Source: Burkholderiales bacterium (lineage in GTDB: Bacteria > Pseudomonadota > Gammaproteobacteria > Burkholderiales > Burkholderiaceae). Taken from it: a stretch of DNA of 36,241 nt. Location of the stretch: positions 1-36,241 of the forward strand of contig JAGXBI010000002.1 in assembly GCA_018971155.1 (NCBI GenBank), read 5' to 3'. Positions 2,197 through 36,241 of this stretch are shown here, in pieces. Each line of letters starts with the position of its first letter. Position 1 is the first letter of the stretch. A program made the translations under genes and the position numbers. Below the pieces are notes generated by a model. It saw nothing but the letters and a program-made list of their open reading frames with translations, did no database searches and was not told the origin of the DNA.

Positions 2197-4569
2197 TCAG
2201 GCACGGCCATTGGACGATGTTTGCAGCGCACGCCACACGCGCTCGGGCGTCGCCGGCATGTCCAGATGCAACACGCCCAGCGCGTCGGTGATCGCGTTGA
2301 TGACAGCCGGCGGCGAGCCGATCGCGCCGGCCTCGCCGCAACCCTTGACGCCCAGCGGATTGTGCGTGCAGGGCGTGCAGGTGGTATCCACCGCGAAGCT
2401 GGGCAGATCGTCGGCCCGCGGCATCGCGTAATCCATGTAGGAGCCCGTGAGCAGCTGTCCGCTCTCGGGATCGTAGACGCACCCTTCGAGCAATGCCTGG
2501 CCAATGCCCTGCGCCAGGCCGCCATGCACTTGTCCCTCGACGATCATCGGGTTGACGATGTTGCCGAAGTCGTCGACCGCGGTCATGGCGACGATCTCCG
2601 TCTGGCCGGTGTCGGGGTCGACCTCGACCTCGCAGATATGGCAGCCGGCCGGATAGGTGAAATTGGTCGGATCGTAGAAGGCCGACTCGTCGAGCCCCGG
2701 TTCGAGCGATTCGAGCGGATAGTTGTGCGGCACATAGGCGGACAGGGCGATCTGTGCGAACGGCAGCGCCTTGTCGGTGCCCGCGACATTGAATTTGCCG
2801 TCCTTGAACTCGATGTCGCCTTCGGCCGCCTCGAGCATGTGCGCGGCGATCTTCTTGCCCTTGGCGATCACCTTGTCGAGCGCCTTGACGATCGCCGAAC
2901 CGCCCACCGCCAGCGAGCGCGAGCCATAGGTGCCCATCCCGAACGGTACGCGCCCGGTGTCGCCATGCACGATGTCGACGTCCTCGTAGGCTATGCCGAG
3001 CCGGTCGGCGACGATCTGCGTGAAGGTCGTCTCGTGCCCCTGCCCGTGACTGTGCGAGCCGGTGAATACCGTCACCTTGCCGGTGGGATGCACGCGCACT
3101 TCGCCGGCCTCGAACAATCCGGCACGCGCGCCGAGCTGGCCGGCGATATTCGACGGCGCCAGGCCGCACGCCTCGATGTAGCACGAATAGCCCAACCCGC
3201 GCAGTTTGCCGCGCTGCCGGGCCGCCTCGCGACGCGCGGGAAAACCCGCGACATCGGCCAGTTGCAGCGCCTTGTCGAGACTGGCGCCGTAATTGCCGGT
3301 GTCGTAGCACAGGGCCACGGGCGTTTGATAGGGGAACTGCGTGACAAAATTGCGACGCCGCAGCTCGACCGGATCGATCTTCATCTCGCGCGCCGCGGTC
3401 TCGACGATGCGCTCGACCACATAGGTCGCTTCGGGGCGGCCCGCGCCGCGGTAGGCATCGACCGGTGCGGTATGCGTGAAAACACCCGTGACTTCGCAAA
3501 AGATCGCCGGCGTGGTGTACTGGCCGGCGAGCAATGTCGCATACAGGATGGTCGGCACGCTCGAGGCAAAGGTCGACAGGTAGGCGCCCAGATTGGCCTT
3601 GGTGTGCACCCGCAGGGCGAGAAACTTGCCGTTCGCGTCGAGCCCGAGCTCGGCCGTGGTCACGTGGTCGCGCCCGTGCGCGTCGGAAAGAAACGACTCG
3701 GAGCGCTCGGCGGTCCACTTGATCGGGCGGTTGATCTGCTTGCTGGCCCACACCAGCGCGGTTTCCTCGGCATACAGGAAAATCTTCGAGCCGAAGCCGC
3801 CGCCCACGTCGGGGGCCACCACGCGCAGTTTGTGCTCGGGCAGGTTCAGCACGAAAGCGGCCATCAGCAGGCGTTCGACGTGCGGGTTCTGATTCGCGAC
3901 ATAGAGCGTGTAGCTGTCGTCGGCGCGGCTGTAGTGCGCCACCGCAGCGCGCGGTTCGATCGCGTTCGGAATCAGGCGGTTGTTGATGAAATCCAGGCGC
4001 GTGACATGCGCGGCCCTGGCCATCGCCGCGTCGACCGCCGCCTGGTCGCCCAGGCTCCACACGTAGCACACGTTGTCCGGCGCGATATCGTGGACCGCCG
4101 GCGCGCCGCTGCGCACTGCGGCATCGGGCGCGACCACTGCATCCAGCGGCTCGTAATCTACGTCGACCAGCTCGGCCGCATCACGCGCCTGCGCCAGCGT
4201 CTGGGCGATCACCAGCGCAACCTGGTCGCCGACATAGCGCACCGTGTCGATGGCCAGCACCGGATGCGGCGGCTCCTTCATCGGCTGGCCGTGCACGTCG
4301 GTAATCAGCCAGCCGCACGGCAAGCCGCCGATGCCCGCGCGCTTGATGTCTTCGCCCGTGAAAATCCCCACCACGCCGGGCGCCTGGCGCGCGGCGTCGA
4401 GCCGGTAGCCGCGAATGCGCGCGTGAGCATACGGCGAGCGCACGAAGTACGCGTAGGTCTGGCCGTCCATCTGGACGTCGTCGGTGTATTGGCCGGCACC
4501 GGTGAGAAATCGGTAGTCTTCCTTGCGGCGCACGGCATGGCCGATGCCGCCCGCGAGATCGGTCGTCAT
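2197..4569 (-). CDS. Molybdopterin-binding large subunit of a xanthine dehydrogenase/CODH-family hydroxylase (CoxL-like, form II motif)
   Basis: 790 aa; [19 protein letters not shown]-terminus; GGGFGSK; active-site loop [29 protein letters not shown]-terminal motif. Confidence 0.94.
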
Positions 4570-4573
4570 GGCG

Positions 4574-5047
4574 TCAGCCCTCCATCGCCGCCAAGCCGGC
4601 CTGCACCGCCTTGACGATGTTGTGGTAGCCGGTGCAACGGCACAGATTGCCCTCCAGGGCGCGGCGAATCTCCGCTTCGCTCGGCGCCGGCTCGCGCCCG
4701 GCCAGCTCGCATGCGCTCATCACCATGCCCGGCGTGCAAAAACCGCATTGCAGGCCGTGATGTTCGCGAAATGCCGCCTGCATCGGATGCAATGTGCCAT
4801 CCGCGGCAGCGAGCCCTTCGATGGTGGTCAGCGCGGCGCCGTCGGCTTGCACCGCCAGCATCGCGCACGACTTGACCGCGCGGCCGTCGAGCAGCACCGT
4901 GCACGCGCCGCATTGCGACGTGTCGCATCCGACGTGGGTGCCGGTCAGGCGGAGGTTGTCGCGGATGAATTGAACCAGCAGGGTTTCGGGAGGAACTTCA
5001 GCGGTCACGGCGCGGCCGTTGACCGTCAAGGACACCTTGACTGTCAT
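4574..5047 (-). CDS. 2Fe-2S iron-sulfur (small) subunit of the molybdenum hydroxylase (CoxS-like)
   Basis: [16 protein letters not shown] plant-type 2Fe-2S motif and CGFCTPGM...[13 protein letters not shown] second cluster motif. Confidence 0.95.
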
Positions 5048-5303
5048 GCGTGTCTCCTCAGGGTTTTAGTGAAGGCATGAACCGACAAGCAGTTTTCATT
5101 GTTGTCCCAAGCCTGCCGCAACGCAAGCGCATTTTCCCGGGCTGCGGCCACCGCCTCGCGCTACCGACCCCGTATATTCCACGGTATACAGCGAGCGATT
5201 TGCCGCTATACTGGTTCGGGTAGGACGTGCGGCCGTCAGGCTGCGTACGTCGATTGTGTTCCGGAACGCTCCGTTGGGGGGCGAGCTCCGGCGGGAGAAA
5301 CGC

Positions 5304-6311
5304 ATGGACAGCGTCGATCTGGAGGTTCTTAAAACTGCGGCGGCATGGGCCGAGGCCGGCTATTTCGTTACCCTCGGCACGGTCGTGCGCACATGGGGAT
5401 CGGCGCCTCGCCCAGTGGGCTCGATGCTGGTGATTCGCGAGGACGGCCACTTGAAAGGATCGGTCTCGGGCGGCTGCGTCGAGGACGACATGATGGATCG
5501 GGTGCGCGGCGGCCAGTGGCCGAGCAGCACACCCGAATTGACCACTTATGGCGTATCGGCCGAACAGGCACAGCGCTTTGGCCTGCCATGCGGCGGCACG
5601 CTGCAGATCGTGCTCGAGCCGGTCGGCGCGAAATCGCGGCTGCGGGACCTGCTGGGGGCAATCGCCCAGTACCGCCTGGTGGTGCGCGAGCTGGATATGG
5701 CCAGCGGCGAGGTTCGCATCGTGCCGGGCCACCGCACGCCCGCGCTGGAATTCGACGGCCAGCGCCTGATCACGTCCCATGGGCCGCGCTTTCGCCTGGT
5801 CGTGATCGGCGCCGGGCAACTCTCCCGTTATGTCGCCAGCATGGCGGTGGCGCTCGACTATCACGTGATCGTCTGCGACCCGCGTGAGGAGTATGCCGAG
5901 GAATGGGATGTGCCGAATACCGAACTGGTACGAGAGATGCCCGACGACCTGATCGTACGTTTGCGGCTGGACGCGCACAGTGCCGTCGTCACACTGACTC
6001 ACGACCCCAAGCTCGACGACATGGCATTGCTCGAGGCGCTCAAGTCGCCGGCGTTCTATATCGGCGCGATCGGTTCGCGCCTCAACAACGACAAGCGCCG
6101 CGAAAGATTGTCGCTGTTCGATCTGAGCAGCAGCGAAATCGCCCGGCTGCACGGCCCGATCGGCCTATATCTCGGCGCGCGCACGCCGGCCGAGATCGCC
6201 GTGGCGATCATGGCGGAGATGACCGCGATCAAGAACGGCATCCCGGTGCTGCAGAATTTCTCTGCCAAAGACCCGGCAACGCTGGGCGCGGGTTGCGCGA
6301 CAGTGGCCTGA
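5304..6311 (+). CDS. XdhC/CoxI family molybdenum cofactor insertion/maturation protein
   Basis: MDSVDLEVLKTAAAWAEAG...VRTWGSAPRPVGSMLVIREDGHLKGSVSGGCVEDD; FGLPCGGTLQIVLEP; C-terminal Rossmann-like VIGAGQLSRYVASMA and YIGAIGSRLNNDKRRERL. Confidence 0.93.
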   Translation: MDSVDLEVLKTAAAWAEAGYFVTLGTVVRTWGSAPRPVGSMLVIREDGHLKGSVSGGCVEDDMMDRVRGGQWPSSTPELTTYGVSAEQAQRFGLPCGGTLQIVLEPVGAKSRLRDLLGAIAQYRLVVRELDMASGEVRIVPGHRTPALEFDGQRLITSHGPRFRLVVIGAGQLSRYVASMAVALDYHVIVCDPREEYAEEWDVPNTELVREMPDDLIVRLRLDAHSAVVTLTHDPKLDDMALLEALKSPAFYIGAIGSRLNNDKRRERLSLFDLSSSEIARLHGPIGLYLGARTPAEIAVAIMAEMTAIKNGIPVLQNFSAKDPATLGAGCATVA

Positions 6312-28839: not shown

Positions 28840-30522
<1,683 letters not shown>

Positions 30523-30534
30523 TCAAGTAGACGC

Positions 30535-30825
30535 TTACTTGTTCACCACGGCCATCAGGTCTTCTTCGCGCATCACCAGCAATTCCTGGCCGTCGATCTT
30601 GACGCTTTGGCCAGCATATTTGCCGAACAACACACGATCGCCGACCTTAACGTCCAGCGCAATCAAATTGCCCTTGTCATCTTTCTTGCCCGGACCGACG
30701 GCCAGAATCTCGCCCTGATCGGGCTTTTCGGCGGCTGCATCGGGAATAACGATACCGGAAGCGGTTTTCGTTTCATTGTCCAGGCGCTTGACGATGACGC
30801 GGTCATGCAAGGGACGAAGGTTCAT
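30535..30825 (-). CDS. groES: 10 kDa co-chaperonin GroES
   Basis: [48 protein letters not shown]...[30 protein letters not shown]. Confidence 0.99.
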
Positions 30826-31164: not shown

Positions 31165-33276
31165 CTACGCGCCACCCTCGCGCCAAAAAACGGACGCGAG
31201 GTACTTCAACCCACGCCAGGCAAAACTTTGTCGCGCACCGCCGATCGTAGCGGTGCCGTCGATCTCGCGGGGCCACGCCTCGTTCGCCGGACATTCGCCG
31301 ATTCGCACGCGATAGATCGCCGCGAGCGGCACCAGCTGATGCGTGTCCGGTTTTTGCTGCACGGGCAGCGGCCCGCCATAGACGCTCGCGAGCGACGGGA
31401 CATCGAGCGTCGCCGCGTTCACGCGATCGACCGCCGTCACGCGGCAATGCACCGCGCCCAGCTCGGGCACCGATGCCACGAAATCCACCCGATCGCCCGC
31501 CGCGATGCGCGCCGCATCGCCCTCGCCGACGAACGCTTCACCCTTCACGCCGATCGGCCCGACGACGTCGAACACGTGCTCGCCGCGCGGCAGCCAGGTA
31601 CCCGGCGCAAGCGCGTCGTCGGTCTGCACAACACCGTCAAACGGAGCGCGCAGCGTCAGCTGGGCAACCTGCGCGGCGAGTCCCGTCACGGTTTGGCGCG
31701 CTGCTTCCCATCGGCGACGCAGCGCCACTCCCTGTTCCAGCAACCGATTGTCGAACGACTGCTGCGCGACCTGCCAGCCCAACAGCGTCTCATCGACCTG
31801 CGCCGCCTGCAGCCGGTGCGCGAGGTCAGGCGAGGCAAGGACCGCGAGGACGTCCCCCGCGCGCACACGCTGCCCGTCATGCACGATCGGCGCCTGCTCC
31901 GTCACGTACCCGGCCTCGGGCGCATAGAGCCCTTGCGCGCGCAACGGCCCGAGCACTGCGGGGGCACTGACGCCGCCATGCCACGGCAGCACGAAAAAGC
32001 CCAGCAGCAGCGTGCCGACGATCGCCGTGCGCCGCGTTTCGCGACGCCAGTGCAACTGCGCGCGACGCTGCCAGCACGCCGTGATTTCACGCGCCACGGG
32101 TCGCGCGATGAACCAGCCGAACTCGACGAAAAACAGCATCAAGCCCAGCGCCTTGAAAAACGTGTGATAAACAACCAGAGCAATTGAAAAAAAGACCACC
32201 AGCCGGTACAGCCACGTCACGAAAGAAAAGGCAATCAAAAAGCGCCTGCGCTTGACCGCGCACGGTTCGGGTTGCGGCTCGCCGAAACCGAACAGCCGCT
32301 CTCTGAGCCACCATCGCCCGAGTGCGAAGGCCCGGTCGTGCAGGTTCGGCATGTCGAGCCAGTCCGACAGCAGGAAGTAGCCGTCGAAGCGCATGAACGG
32401 GCTTGCGTTGATCGTCAGCGTGCCGATCCAGGTAGTCGTCGCGAGCAGAAACGCGCCGGCGCGCAGCGGCCCGTCGGGCAGCACGCTCCAGGCGAGCGTC
32501 GCCACGGCGGCCAGCGCAAGCTCCGTCAGCATGCCGGCCGCGCCGATGCGCAGCCGCTGCGCGCGCCCCGGTACCTTCCAGGCTTCGGTCGTATCGGTAT
32601 AGAGCACCGGCACCATCACGAGCAGCGCGACGCCCATCGTCGGCACCCGGCAGCCGTAGCGATGCGCTGTGAATGCGTGCCCGAATTCGTGCAATATCTT
32701 GGCGCAGGCGATGGCCGCGCCGATCGCAACCAGCCCGCGCACGTCGGCGTATCCATGGAACGTATGAATGAACTCGTCCCAGCGCTGCGACACCAGCACG
32801 AGACCGCTCAGCGCCATCAGCACGATCACCATCCAGAACGCCGGCCGGTAGGCGATCTCCGCGTAGCGTGCGAAGCGCCGCAAGAACGGCATCGGGTGCC
32901 ATAGCGGGACACGAATCATCAAGTAGTGCTTGAGCAACCACATTGCACGCGAGAGCTTGTGCGCGGCCGCTGCATTCTCGAGCAGCCCGGTATCGGCCGG
33001 ACTCGCCGCAACGAGCAAATGCTGATAGTGCAGCATCCGCAAGAGCGCTTCGAAGTCATCCCTCGTCAGTCGCAGCGTCGTCTGCGCATTGACCGAAGCC
33101 ACGATCGCCTCGGGGTCGTCGAGCGACCAGCGCGAGAGCATTTCGAACGCGGGCCAGCCGATCTGGAAGAAGCGATTGCCCGCAGGATCATGGAGCATCC
33201 AGGTCGGCGCGCCGTCGGGCGTCGCCGCGCCGGGGGTCAGGCTCAGTTCCTGGCGAAGAGAAGGAAGGTGTGACAT
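31165..33276 (-). CDS. Three-part fusion: PqqD-like N-terminus, M50/site-2-protease-like membrane domain, C-terminal HlyD-type adaptor domain
   Basis: 703 aa. PqqD-like WMLHDPAGNRFFQIGWPAFEMLSRWSLDDPEAIVASVN; zinc motif HEFGH at residues 196-200 (nt 32677..32691) and NASPFMRFDGYFLLSDW; HlyD-like LYAPEAGYVTEQAPIVHDGQRVRAGDVLAVLASPDL...LRAPFDGVVQ. Confidence 0.85.
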   Translation of the reverse strand: MSHLPSLRQELSLTPGAATPDGAPTWMLHDPAGNRFFQIGWPAFEMLSRWSLDDPEAIVASVNAQTTLRLTRDDFEALLRMLHYQHLLVAASPADTGLLENAAAAHKLSRAMWLLKHYLMIRVPLWHPMPFLRRFARYAEIAYRPAFWMVIVLMALSGLVLVSQRWDEFIHTFHGYADVRGLVAIGAAIACAKILHEFGHAFTAHRYGCRVPTMGVALLVMVPVLYTDTTEAWKVPGRAQRLRIGAAGMLTELALAAVATLAWSVLPDGPLRAGAFLLATTTWIGTLTINASPFMRFDGYFLLSDWLDMPNLHDRAFALGRWWLRERLFGFGEPQPEPCAVKRRRFLIAFSFVTWLYRLVVFFSIALVVYHTFFKALGLMLFFVEFGWFIARPVAREITACWQRRAQLHWRRETRRTAIVGTLLLGFFVLPWHGGVSAPAVLGPLRAQGLYAPEAGYVTEQAPIVHDGQRVRAGDVLAVLASPDLAHRLQAAQVDETLLGWQVAQQSFDNRLLEQGVALRRRWEAARQTVTGLAAQVAQLTLRAPFDGVVQTDDALAPGTWLPRGEHVFDVVGPIGVKGEAFVGEGDAARIAAGDRVDFVASVPELGAVHCRVTAVDRVNAATLDVPSLASVYGGPLPVQQKPDTHQLVPLAAIYRVRIGECPANEAWPREIDGTATIGGARQSFAWRGLKYLASVFWREGGA

Positions 33277-33315: not shown

Positions 33316-34758
33316 CTACCAGCCGAGCCACTGCCGCGCGCTCGCCAGCGGGCGGCGCAGCAGATAGTAGGCAAGCGGCACCCAGCGGCCGTGAATGCGC
33401 GCAGTACCCATGACGCCGAGCGGCGGCTTGACCCTGCCGGTAAACGTGGCCTTTACGCGATAGGCCACCACGCCATCGGGCGTCGGCTCGGCACGGTAGG
33501 CCACCGTGTCGATGCGTGCATCGTAGGAGGCGAACGGCGAGCTCTTCGGATAAAGCGTGACACTTGCACCAGGCACCACGTCGACGTTGTCGGCGACGGG
33601 CACGTAGGCGGTGAGCTCGACGTGAGCTGGATCGGCAAGCAGCATCACCTTCTCGCCGATCGACACCGCTTTGCCGTTCCAATCGTTCGGATCGGAGAAC
33701 ACAGCGACGCCCGCACGCGGCGCGTTCACACGTACACGAGCGAGTTCGCGCGCCGTATAGTCGAGTTCGACTGCGCTTTGGTCGAGCTTGCCCTTGCGCA
33801 GCGCCATATCGAGCCGATCCTTATCGTCGGTGACTGCGAGCTGGGCCGTCTGCCGATACTCCTCCTGCGCCGTTGCGTAGTTCTTGTTCGCCACGGCATA
33901 GCGCGAGGCGAGCGCCGTGGAGTCGAGCGCAAACAGGGGGGTACCCGCTGCGACACGCTGGTTCGGCTGCGCGAACAGGCGATCGATCACGCCATCGAGC
34001 GGAGCGCGCACGACGAACGGGTCCTTCGGCGTAACCTCGGCCGGCGCAAGCACCGTCAGCGGCACGGGCGCGACGAGCGCACAAGCGGCTGCTATGAGCA
34101 CGCGACGCCGATACTTGCCTACACGCAACGCAAGCCTGGCGCGCGCGCTCCAGGAAGCCCGCGGAGAAAACGCCGCGAGCGCGTGCGACCAGACGCGTGC
34201 GAGCTCGGCGAGCAGCGCCTCGTCCACCGGCGTCCACGGCTGCTCACGCGCGAAAACCACGCCGCCGAACGAGCGGCCCAGCCGATCGAAGAGCGGCACC
34301 CATAGGGCGTACGGTGGCCACCAGGCTTCCCATTCGGCCGCGAGCGTGCCGGGCAGGCTGTCGGCAGTGAAGGCTTGCGGTCCAGCCGGCGATGCCGGGT
34401 CGGCGCTGTGCGCCGGTGCACTCGATTGCCCTGCATTGCCGGGCACCTCGCCCGCGCCCTGCCCCCCGTCGGCCGCGGCAGCATGCGTACGACGGTCAAG
34501 CGCGCGGCACACTTCGCCGAGCCACTGCACGTATGGCGCGCCCGGGTCGCTCTGCGGCAGGCCCGACACGGCGGCGACCGCGCCGGGCACGGGCGCCGGT
34601 GCGCGCCACCACGCCGCCTGCCGGTACGGCACGAGCGAGAGCGTTTCATTGACCACGACAAAGCCGAGCGTCTGCTCGCTCGGCGCTTCGCGCGCACGCG
34701 CGGACAATTGCCAGAGCACGGCAAGCGCGCTCGCCTCGATCCGCAGCGGTGCGTTCAT
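33316..34758 (-). CDS. HlyD-family membrane fusion protein with a GAF-like cytosolic N-terminal region
   Basis: 480 aa. N-terminal ~200 aa soluble GAF-like region ending LFDRLGRSFGGVVFAREQPWTPVDEALLAELARVWSHALAAF; one TM (VLIAAACALVAPVPLTVLAPAEV); HlyD-like FVVRAPLDGVIDRLFAQPNQRVAAGTPLFALDS. Confidence 0.82.
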   Translation of the reverse strand: MNAPLRIEASALAVLWQLSARAREAPSEQTLGFVVVNETLSLVPYRQAAWWRAPAPVPGAVAAVSGLPQSDPGAPYVQWLGEVCRALDRRTHAAAADGGQGAGEVPGNAGQSSAPAHSADPASPAGPQAFTADSLPGTLAAEWEAWWPPYALWVPLFDRLGRSFGGVVFAREQPWTPVDEALLAELARVWSHALAAFSPRASWSARARLALRVGKYRRRVLIAAACALVAPVPLTVLAPAEVTPKDPFVVRAPLDGVIDRLFAQPNQRVAAGTPLFALDSTALASRYAVANKNYATAQEEYRQTAQLAVTDDKDRLDMALRKGKLDQSAVELDYTARELARVRVNAPRAGVAVFSDPNDWNGKAVSIGEKVMLLADPAHVELTAYVPVADNVDVVPGASVTLYPKSSPFASYDARIDTVAYRAEPTPDGVVAYRVKATFTGRVKPPLGVMGTARIHGRWVPLAYYLLRRPLASARQWLGW

Positions 34759-34771
34759 GTGCGGCTACCGC

Positions 34772-35623
34772 TTAATGACCGGGCGCGGCAAAACGCGCCC
34801 AACCGCTCATGCCCGGCAACAACTCGGGCGTGTGGGCAGACAGCGCGGCCGTCACATCGACGGTCTGCGTCACCGGATCGACGCGCGCGCCGATACGCGC
34901 CACCTTGGCCGGATAACTCCTGCCGACTTCATCGACGCTTACCGTCAGCGCGTGGCCGGGCTTGAGCCAGACGAGCCACTTCGACGGCACGATCATCTTC
35001 AGTTCGAGATGGCTCGTGTCGATGATCGTGAGGAGCGTTTTGCCGGGCTCGGCGAACTGCTGCGCCGAGGCACTGCGCTTGACGACGCGCCCGTCGAACG
35101 GTGCGGTAATGCCGCACTTTCTCACGGTCGCCTGCATGTAGGCCACTTCCGCCGCGCTTGCCTTGGCTTTCGCCTGCGCTTGCTGCACCTCGACTTCGCC
35201 GATCGAATGCAGTTGCGAGAGGCGATCATTGACGCGCTGGAGCTGCACGGCCGCCTCGGCTTCCGCCTGGGCCTTGTGCAATTGCGCGACGTAGAGCGAG
35301 CAATCCAGCGAGACGAGCGTCTGCCCGGCGCGGAATGCATCGCCGTCGCGAAACGGCATCGAAGCGATCTTCGCGCTGATTTCGCTCGAAATATCGACCT
35401 GATCGCGCGCGACGAGCTGGACCCGGATCCGGCCATCGTCCTCGGCATGCACAGACGAAGAAACGCCGAGCGTCGCCGGCGCATTGGGCACTGCGGGTAC
35501 GGCAGAAGACGCGCGCGGCGGCGCGGCTTGCGGCCCTGCGGCTTGGGCACCCCCGCAAGAACAGCTATAGGCCACTACCATCAGGGCTGCACTGCGCAGC
35601 CCCGCCCGACACCATGAATTCAT
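34772..35623 (-). CDS. HlyD/RND-type periplasmic adaptor subunit with signal peptide
   Basis: 283 aa. N-terminal signal-like MNSWCRAGLRSAALMVVAYSCSCGGAQA; IASMPFRDGDAFRAGQTLVSLDCSLYVAQLHKAQAEAEAA; KCGITAPFDGRVVKRSASAQQFAEPGKTLLTIID. Confidence 0.88.
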   Translation of the reverse strand: MNSWCRAGLRSAALMVVAYSCSCGGAQAAGPQAAPPRASSAVPAVPNAPATLGVSSSVHAEDDGRIRVQLVARDQVDISSEISAKIASMPFRDGDAFRAGQTLVSLDCSLYVAQLHKAQAEAEAAVQLQRVNDRLSQLHSIGEVEVQQAQAKAKASAAEVAYMQATVRKCGITAPFDGRVVKRSASAQQFAEPGKTLLTIIDTSHLELKMIVPSKWLVWLKPGHALTVSVDEVGRSYPAKVARIGARVDPVTQTVDVTAALSAHTPELLPGMSGWARFAAPGH

Positions 35624-36241
35624 TGCGTTTTAACTCCATCCGCGCGGCCCAACTGGGTCCAACGCGTTTGCTCCTTGTCGATCGATTGCTCGATCGATTT
35701 CAAATCGCCAGTGCCGGCATCGGCGGGCAACGGGTCGAGTCCGAGCGTTGCCAGCAGCTGACCGTACGCGCCTTCGAGCTCGCCATAGCTTTCATACAGG
35801 CGAAGTTCCGACATCATCGCGGAGGCTGCCGCGCGGATCTCCTCGAGCTTGCCCTGCGCATTCGCGACGGTGGCGTTGTGCATGTGCTGAAGGATCTGCG
35901 CATCGACATCGTTGATCTGCCTGAACAAATCGAACTGACGCTGCTTTGCGCTCAACTCGGCGCGCGCGACGTGCACCTGCGTGAGCACGGCCATCGACAG
36001 CGCAAGCTGCTGCGCGTGAGCGACTTCGCGTTGCGCATTCGCCATGCCGCGAATGTTCTTCGCGTTGAGCAGGTTCAACAGGTTCCAGCTCACGTTGATG
36101 CCGGCCGCGCGCCATGCATGATAGGCCAGGAAGCTGTTGCTGTCGTAGTGCGTGCCCAACTGCAGTTCGATGCCCGGCAGCAGCTTGGCGATAGCCTTGT
36201 GCGTCTCGTTGACGCTGATGCGCTCGTTGTAGCTCGCTTCG
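35620..36241 (-). CDS. TolC-family outer membrane efflux protein, C-terminal part (truncated by the right window edge)
   Basis: Open frame runs to the window edge: EASYNERISVNETHKAIAKLLPGIELQLGTHYDSNSFLAYHAWRAAGINVSWNLLNLLNAKNIRG...YESYGELEGAYGQLLATLGLDPLP; 4-nt overlap with the next gene. Confidence 0.85.
   Translation of the reverse strand, partial: EASYNERISVNETHKAIAKLLPGIELQLGTHYDSNSFLAYHAWRAAGINVSWNLLNLLNAKNIRGMANAQREVAHAQQLALSMAVLTQVHVARAELSAKQRQFDLFRQINDVDAQILQHMHNATVANAQGKLEEIRAAASAMMSELRLYESYGELEGAYGQLLATLGLDPLPADAGTGDLKSIEQSIDKEQTRWTQLGRADGVKTQ

Follow-up and report, generated by a model that had tools for sequence, protein, structure and literature searches.

A Candidate Reader and Cutter of Giant LEPR-Motif Proteins: an RRE, Site-2-Protease, and HlyD Fusion Encoded in TolC-Type Operons

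The last gene of an operon in a Burkholderiales genome (GenBank assembly GCA_018971155.1) encodes a 703-amino-acid (aa) protein in which a PqqD-like RRE domain, an M50/site-2-protease (S2P) core, and a HlyD adaptor are fused (positions 31165 to 33276, minus strand). The stretch analyzed here, referred to as the window, comprises the first 36,241 nucleotides of contig JAGXBI010000002.1. The fusion is probably a giant protein's tag reader and cutter, because it shares one operon with a tag-matched giant in many species. On balance, we favor a role as the subunit that, in the inner membrane, recognizes and processes the substrate of a dedicated envelope machine exporting a single giant, in which the RRE domain would read an N-terminal LEPR leader and the M50 site would cut it. 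The proposed substrate is thus a giant protein and not a small RiPP, an assignment for which the genomic support is good. The system appears to be a variant of a known, uncharacterized secretion-like locus, to which a substrate is here assigned.

Domain architecture of the fusion protein

A reading-frame check identified the open reading frame (ORF) as intact, with an ATG start. Homologues of the protein number in the hundreds (at least 591 confirmed stretches), so the fused architecture is not due to chance. A preliminary description, made from the sequence of the window, had read the protein as PqqD-like, S2P-like, and HlyD-like modules in one polypeptide, and the RRE fold, invariant S2P residues, and HlyD fold described below bear this out.

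The N-terminal module (residues 1 to 100; 32977 to 33276, minus strand) is a PqqD-like RRE domain predicted to be cytosolic. The profile search proposed for this region gave a mixed outcome. The window protein's own sequence had no match to Pfam PqqD (PF05402), but the profile matched 4 of 62 aligned homologous N termini (best E value, 1.3e−8), and one full-length homologue, from locus L118, passed the gathering score (30.2 versus 23.4). Searching a profile of the N terminus against PDB sequences returned no match. The structure prediction that had also been proposed returned an RRE fold. The AlphaFold2 model of residues 1 to 108 (pLDDT 81) consists of three strands followed by helices, and the top eight Foldseek matches in the PDB were all RRE domains (probability, 0.93 to 1.00), among them leader-bound TbiB1 of a lasso-peptide system, a second lasso B1 protein, and a sactipeptide maturase. 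VIA Z values were 10.8 (6jx3, 82 residues), 10.3 (TbiB1, 5v1v), and 10.2 for lasso RREs and 8.7 for Methylobacterium PqqD (5sxy). By its modeled structure, the N-terminal fold is that of a PqqD-like RRE, the leader-recognition domain of RiPP pathways, and leader binding is predicted from this fold.

Residues 110 to 430 (31987 to 32949, minus strand) form a predicted seven-transmembrane-helix (TM) M50/S2P core, delimited using Pfam, NF041824, AlphaFold2 helices, and the positive-inside pattern. Pfam Peptidase_M50 scored 28.2 bits (cutoff, 27.2), and the NCBIfam model daptide_HExxH (NF041824) aligned over residues 89 to 384 with an E value of 5e−46, its score of 157.6 bits lying below the equivalog cutoff of 300. 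Seven long helices were present within residues 145 to 429 of the full-length AlphaFold2 model (pLDDT 86). The preliminary description had reported intact HEFGH and NASPFMRFDG motifs, and both were recovered. HEFGH, the zinc-binding and catalytic motif (residues 196 to 200; 32677 to 32691, minus strand), is followed by NASPFMRFDG (residues 290 to 299; 32380 to 32409, minus strand), which supplies the third zinc ligand, D298. H196, E197, H200, N290, and D298 were identical in all of the 128 distinct homologues that were aligned by profile. The core is, as judged from these residues, an S2P with a complete set of conserved catalytic positions, and protease activity is predicted.

The remaining residues, 431 to 703 (31168 to 31986, minus strand), constitute a predicted periplasmic HlyD/MFP adaptor, with a Pfam HlyD_3 score of 46.5 bits (cutoff, 22.2) and MacA, MexA, and EmrA as the best PDB matches by Foldseek (E value of about 1e−10). 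The sum of Lys and Arg residues per loop alternates (6, 1, 2, 0, 5, 0, 3, 1), which together with hydropathy fits an N terminus inside and a C terminus outside. This topology would place the RRE domain in the cytosol, the HlyD adaptor in the periplasm, and the zinc ligands where TM2 (H196/H200) and TM4 (D298) meet the cytosol.

The operon and its giant partner

The genes in the window operon are ordered TolC, MFP, GAF-like HlyD, and fusion. Directly upstream of the fusion gene lies a 480-aa protein (33316 to 34758, minus strand) with a diverged GAF-like cytosolic domain and a HlyD adaptor (HlyD_3, 57.6 bits); in its orthologue from locus L062, the GAF domain passes the gathering score (27.3 versus 22.4). 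The next gene encodes a 283-aa periplasmic adaptor of the RND_mfp/CusB-like HlyD type (34772 to 35623, minus strand; TIGR01730, 127 bits, above the cutoff). The C-terminal part of a TolC-family outer-membrane factor follows (35620 to 36241, minus strand; OEP, 20.9 bits for the fragment), the gene being cut by the contig end at 36241. A complete orthologue, with an OEP score of 99 bits, is found in locus L226 of the environmental relative Paraburkholderia kururiensis, where the full operon comprises a 2,440-residue frame, TolC, MFP, GAF-like HlyD, and the M50 fusion. Directly downstream of the fusion gene in the window are groES/groEL (28840 to 30825, same strand), unrelated housekeeping genes outside the operon with their own σ70-like promoter match (30955 to 30927; 11 of 12 positions).

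This gene order recurs in 80 homologous loci, with a giant (>1,000 to 2,800 residues) as upstream neighbor wherever that position is in reach, and the operon with its upstream giant spans Alpha-, Beta-, and Gammaproteobacteria and Desulfobacterota. On a Burkholderia anthina plasmid, the RefSeq annotation reads DUF4347, TolC, MFP, HlyD, HlyD. The first gene of the relatives' operons encodes a giant repeat protein, mostly of 2,000 to 3,500 aa, and a giant LEPR-motif surface protein accompanies the operon in 62 loci. The giants of these window-type (type A) loci share a C-terminal Ig-like (He_PIG-like) module in the 62 loci, ending in a "GKPSLxxQF"-like tail in 55 of 62 by a strict pattern. Their N termini are short and basic and carry LEPRhhFDA/G, usually followed by DUF4347. 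A Sec-like hydrophobic segment is lacking from the LEPR giants: by a rough measure on which a window adaptor scores 1.51, the top 15-residue hydropathy had a median of 0.92, with 0 of 49 at ≥2.0, compared with 2.06 to 2.52 for Sec-type DUF4347 proteins. The giant of locus L082 (1054 to 8619) starts with an ESPR extended signal peptide, as in type V secretion, before its LEQRFMFDGA; this could possibly be a relic or indicate a hybrid route.

The window genome has one DUF4347 gene, running off a contig end (G000:C45:502-993, minus strand), whose product has the N-terminal sequence MKFAASLSKLLRAMPASDKSKGARGAVAAMPAPLIVALEPRIVYDASVAS. Upstream of this gene, short stretches match sequence preceding the P. 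kururiensis giant in the same order; a query with the C terminus of that giant found no match in the window genome, as an assembly gap might explain. We infer that a single gap within the giant gene separates the end of C45 from the end of the window contig; the giant's N terminus and the operon are on different contigs, joined by analogy and short synteny alone. The assembly breaks on either side of the presumed giant (G000:C45:1-1311 and window position 36241), consistent with loss of a repeat-rich gene during assembly.

The preliminary description had proposed that the fusion recognizes a substrate peptide and had suggested looking for small ORFs with leader-like N termini nearby. Maturation and export of a small RiPP-like peptide encoded close to the gene would suit the RRE domain and the relatedness of the core to the maturation proteases of daptides and of the YydH system. 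We consider this reading highly improbable, as the operon contains no RiPP enzyme and has a giant gene upstream instead, and no conserved short ORF is found near the gene. A comparison across 80 loci of ORFs of 25 to 120 aa in the 1.5 kb that follow the M50 gene gave lineage-specific matches only, the best family being confined to close relatives and present in at most 10 of the 80 loci. Upstream, where room for a small ORF was also checked, the gaps before the M50 gene were mostly <60 bases. Regulated intramembrane proteolysis, with the S2P cutting an anti-sigma factor or a sensor, is a similarly remote explanation. It would accord with S2P family membership and with the GAF-like domain in the neighboring protein, but the conserved neighbors are secretion genes and a giant, and a secretion role accounts more directly for the HlyD tail and TolC. 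A phage or viral origin was also considered and rejected (a single contig among 2.9 million).

The LEPR motif and a SecA-type sister machine

Of 50 records from hosts of the M50 fusion, 47 contained DUF4347 giants, compared with none of 14 controls. Across 370 genomes of the class, DUF4347 was present in 42 of 58 fusion-positive genomes versus 10 of 312 others (odds ratio, 79; Fisher P = 1.7e−32, with genomes counted as independent despite relatedness); 16 of the 58 M50-positive genomes had no DUF4347 match, and DUF4347 and the fusion lay ≤40 kb apart in 22 genomes. Every readable DUF4347 giant of the fusion-positive genomes carried the motif [LMV]EPR-h-h-[FYL]-[DSE], in which P is sometimes replaced (LEQR, LEKR, LEAR). 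A stricter pattern, drawn up as a regular expression after examples had been seen, matched 39 of 44 distinct frames and was found in 0.2% of shuffles; the other five frames had VEPR, MEPR, or a final E.

Outside fusion operons, the motif was missing from 10 of 11 DUF4347 proteins. These motif-less proteins start at DUF4347, have a Sec-type signal, or adjoin an ABC type I secretion system (T1SS). The exception, from an M50-negative genome (G266), is a protein at a contig edge with a motif-like LEKRIVFDA. Conventional T1SS arrangements were seen at loci L124 and L133, where a motif-less DUF4347 giant frame adjoins two ABC genes, HlyD, and TolC; the genome concerned contains LEPR-type operons as well. 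The LEPR motif tracks the protease and not DUF4347. DUF4347 itself was ruled out as the recognized feature, given that DUF4347 proteins occur without the machine and that a LEPR giant with no visible DUF4347 is paired with one.

A second layout of the machine encodes an M50 fusion about 25% identical to the window type together with a SecA paralogue (PF07517; E value, 2e−102). The RRE-M50-HlyD protein, GAF-HlyD, and MFP are common to both, but the SecA-type layout has no TolC homologous to that of the window type. SecA_DEAD proteins were present in 16 of 24 SecA-type (type B) locus rows versus 0 of 118 type A rows. The SecA-type giants, of up to about 10,000 residues, have the classical LEPR-XLL form "LEPRhLLSAD". 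Mapped onto a tree of the 128 fusions, the SecA and TolC labels are accounted for by a single change. The final motif residue was D in 10 of 10 window-type genomes and S in 12 of 12 SecA-type genomes, a correlation confounded by phylogeny, since the types form two clades. One genome (G403) holds both machines, with a LEPRLMFDGA giant directly upstream of its TolC-type operon and a LEARFLLSAD giant on another contig. On a Pontibrevibacter plasmid, RefSeq annotates a LEPR-XLL protein, DUF3467, MFP, "PqqD family peptide modification chaperone," DEAD/DEAH helicase, and MFP; this giant has MEPRVLLSAD near its N terminus and no DUF4347 visible in 200 residues, and the "chaperone" is RefSeq's name for the fusion with which it is paired. 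In a SecA-type operon (L250, 9863 to 10144), a DUF3467 protein of about 93 aa separates the LEPR-XLL giant from the adaptor. At L118, a ShlB/FhaC-type two-partner outer-membrane protein (4219 to 6303) adjoins the SecA-type locus and is possibly an outer-membrane exit replacing TolC.

SecA-type loci were described by Kamneva, Poudel and Ward in 2015, who suggested SecA as the ATPase and M50 as the pore and called their biological role "completely unknown" (PMC4452313). The text of that paper contains no substrate, no PqqD/RRE domain, no LEPR motif, and no SecA-less version. Their SecA_DEAD/T1SS-like locus resembles the window operon in its M50-HlyD, GAF-HlyD, and HlyD adaptor genes, in sometimes having an OEP gene, and in having no ABC transporter; the M50 fusions are homologous by BLAST and profile at about 25% identity. 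It differs in that the window operon has no SecA but does have a TolC gene. Naming a substrate for a module whose role was "completely unknown" in 2015 therefore provides a test.

Transferred to the window, the pore proposal of these authors for the SecA version (PMC4452313) would make the polytopic M50 domain the inner-membrane channel, replacing an ABC transporter, with proteolysis secondary. Within the operon, the fusion is indeed the only polytopic membrane protein, and ABC genes are not conserved alongside it (no ABC match at all in 113 of 118 type A locus rows); however, catalytic residues that are invariant in 128 of 128 homologues would be needless in a pure channel. No S2P fold is known to form a protein channel. 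We regard the pore proposal as distinctly unlikely.

Proposed mechanism and related systems

In the favored reading, the cytosolic RRE domain would bind the LEPR segment of the giant as a leader, the M50 site would cleave that leader at the membrane, and the HlyD tail, the two other adaptors, and TolC would form a conduit through which the giant leaves the cell in one step. That the RRE binds the LEPR segment and the S2P cleaves it is the simplest reading, since the N-terminal LEPR motif is the consistent common feature of the substrates. No cleavage site is visible in the giants. For the sister machine, the SecA paralogue is the likely motor. The window-type operon contains no ATPase gene, and the window genome has one SecA only (a 933-aa frame); candidate motors here would be this housekeeping SecA, an ABC protein encoded elsewhere in the genome, or the proton motive force. 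The sequence of events in the preliminary description, namely, to recognize, cleave at the membrane, and hand over to TolC, remains plausible, as it fits the RRE fold, the invariant S2P residues, the topology, the HlyD fold, and the operonic TolC. What had to be replaced is its substrate, the small peptide giving way to the giant LEPR surface protein seen in 62 loci.

The same components could serve retention and release, in the manner of LapA retention and its release by LapG. Export would proceed C terminus first by means of the tail, the RRE-bound LEPR segment would anchor the giant, and a later cut by M50 would set it free. The conserved He_PIG-like module and "GKPSLxxQF" tail of the type A giants, comparable to the C-terminal signals of T1SS substrates, are in keeping with such a scheme, and the GAF-like domain could sense a signal. 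Nevertheless, SecA-type giants have no such tail, although they too carry LEPR and are paired with a homologous M50 fusion, and we judge retention and release to be unlikely. The C-terminal tail as a common signal was ruled out on the same observation.

More broadly, and tentatively, the loci could represent a separate class of ABC-less one-step secretion, in which an RRE reads the LEPR leader of giants and an adaptor-fused intramembrane protease removes it. As part of this tentative proposal, the class would have two branches, one driven by a dedicated SecA and the other, that of the window, running without one. LEPR-XLL would then be a leader for this route.

Several known systems resemble parts of this arrangement. 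The daptide protein MpaP is an RRE-S2P fusion encoded beside precursors with an N-terminal ELExMEAP and has been assigned to leader removal (PMC10036551). MpaP/DapP (PMC10036551; NF041824) share with the window protein an N-terminal RRE fused to S2P and substrates with an N-terminal leader motif, whereas the window protein is also fused to HlyD and is paired with a giant rather than a short precursor. The epipeptide maturation protease YydH/LiaK (NF058609) has an M50 HExxH and weak similarity to the window protein (E value, 3e−4); it differs in having no HlyD module and a small peptide substrate. Type I secretion of giant adhesins (LapBCE or HlyBD-TolC) likewise involves TolC, HlyD adaptors, and a giant Ca-repeat/Ig-like substrate with a conserved C terminus, but the window operon has an RRE-S2P protein and no ABC transporter. 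LEPR-XLL (NF012209, LEPR-8K) and Planc_extracel (PF07595) describe a short LEPR motif at the N terminus of surface proteins of great length, and earlier work has regarded PF07595, the planctomycete form, as a signal for the cell surface (PMC8567305). The SecA-type giants carry LEPR-XLL, and one type B giant is so annotated by RefSeq; the window-type giants have LEPRhhFDA/G instead, for which NF012209 scores of 13.8 and 13.3 fall below the cutoff of 17.

Searches of the open-licence literature, in which earlier work may have been missed, returned no text linking SecA-type loci to LEPR giants or an RRE and no description of the SecA-less TolC type; no paper naming M50, HlyD, and PqqD together was found there. 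The LEPR-XLL motif, the mark of some of the longest bacterial proteins, would by these results gain a partner. If the proposal is true, RiPP leader recognition has been reused to secrete proteins of thousands of residues, beyond peptide natural products.

Widespread in Proteobacteria, the system is also carried by Escherichia coli and Citrobacter plasmids. Complete TolC-type operons were identified on two of these plasmids (L254, 4695 to 22073, corresponding to NZ_CP060066.1, 20836 to 38214; and L248, NZ_CP142906.1), which are IncHI1B where typed. Their giants, of about 3,668 and 4,465 aa, start MTTIKNRRLRPRAHRFALESRQLFDGAALAE, followed by a DUF4347-like segment. The tail of the E. coli plasmid giant reads GAPSLAAQ, and the GAF-HlyD gene is split in one Citrobacter copy.
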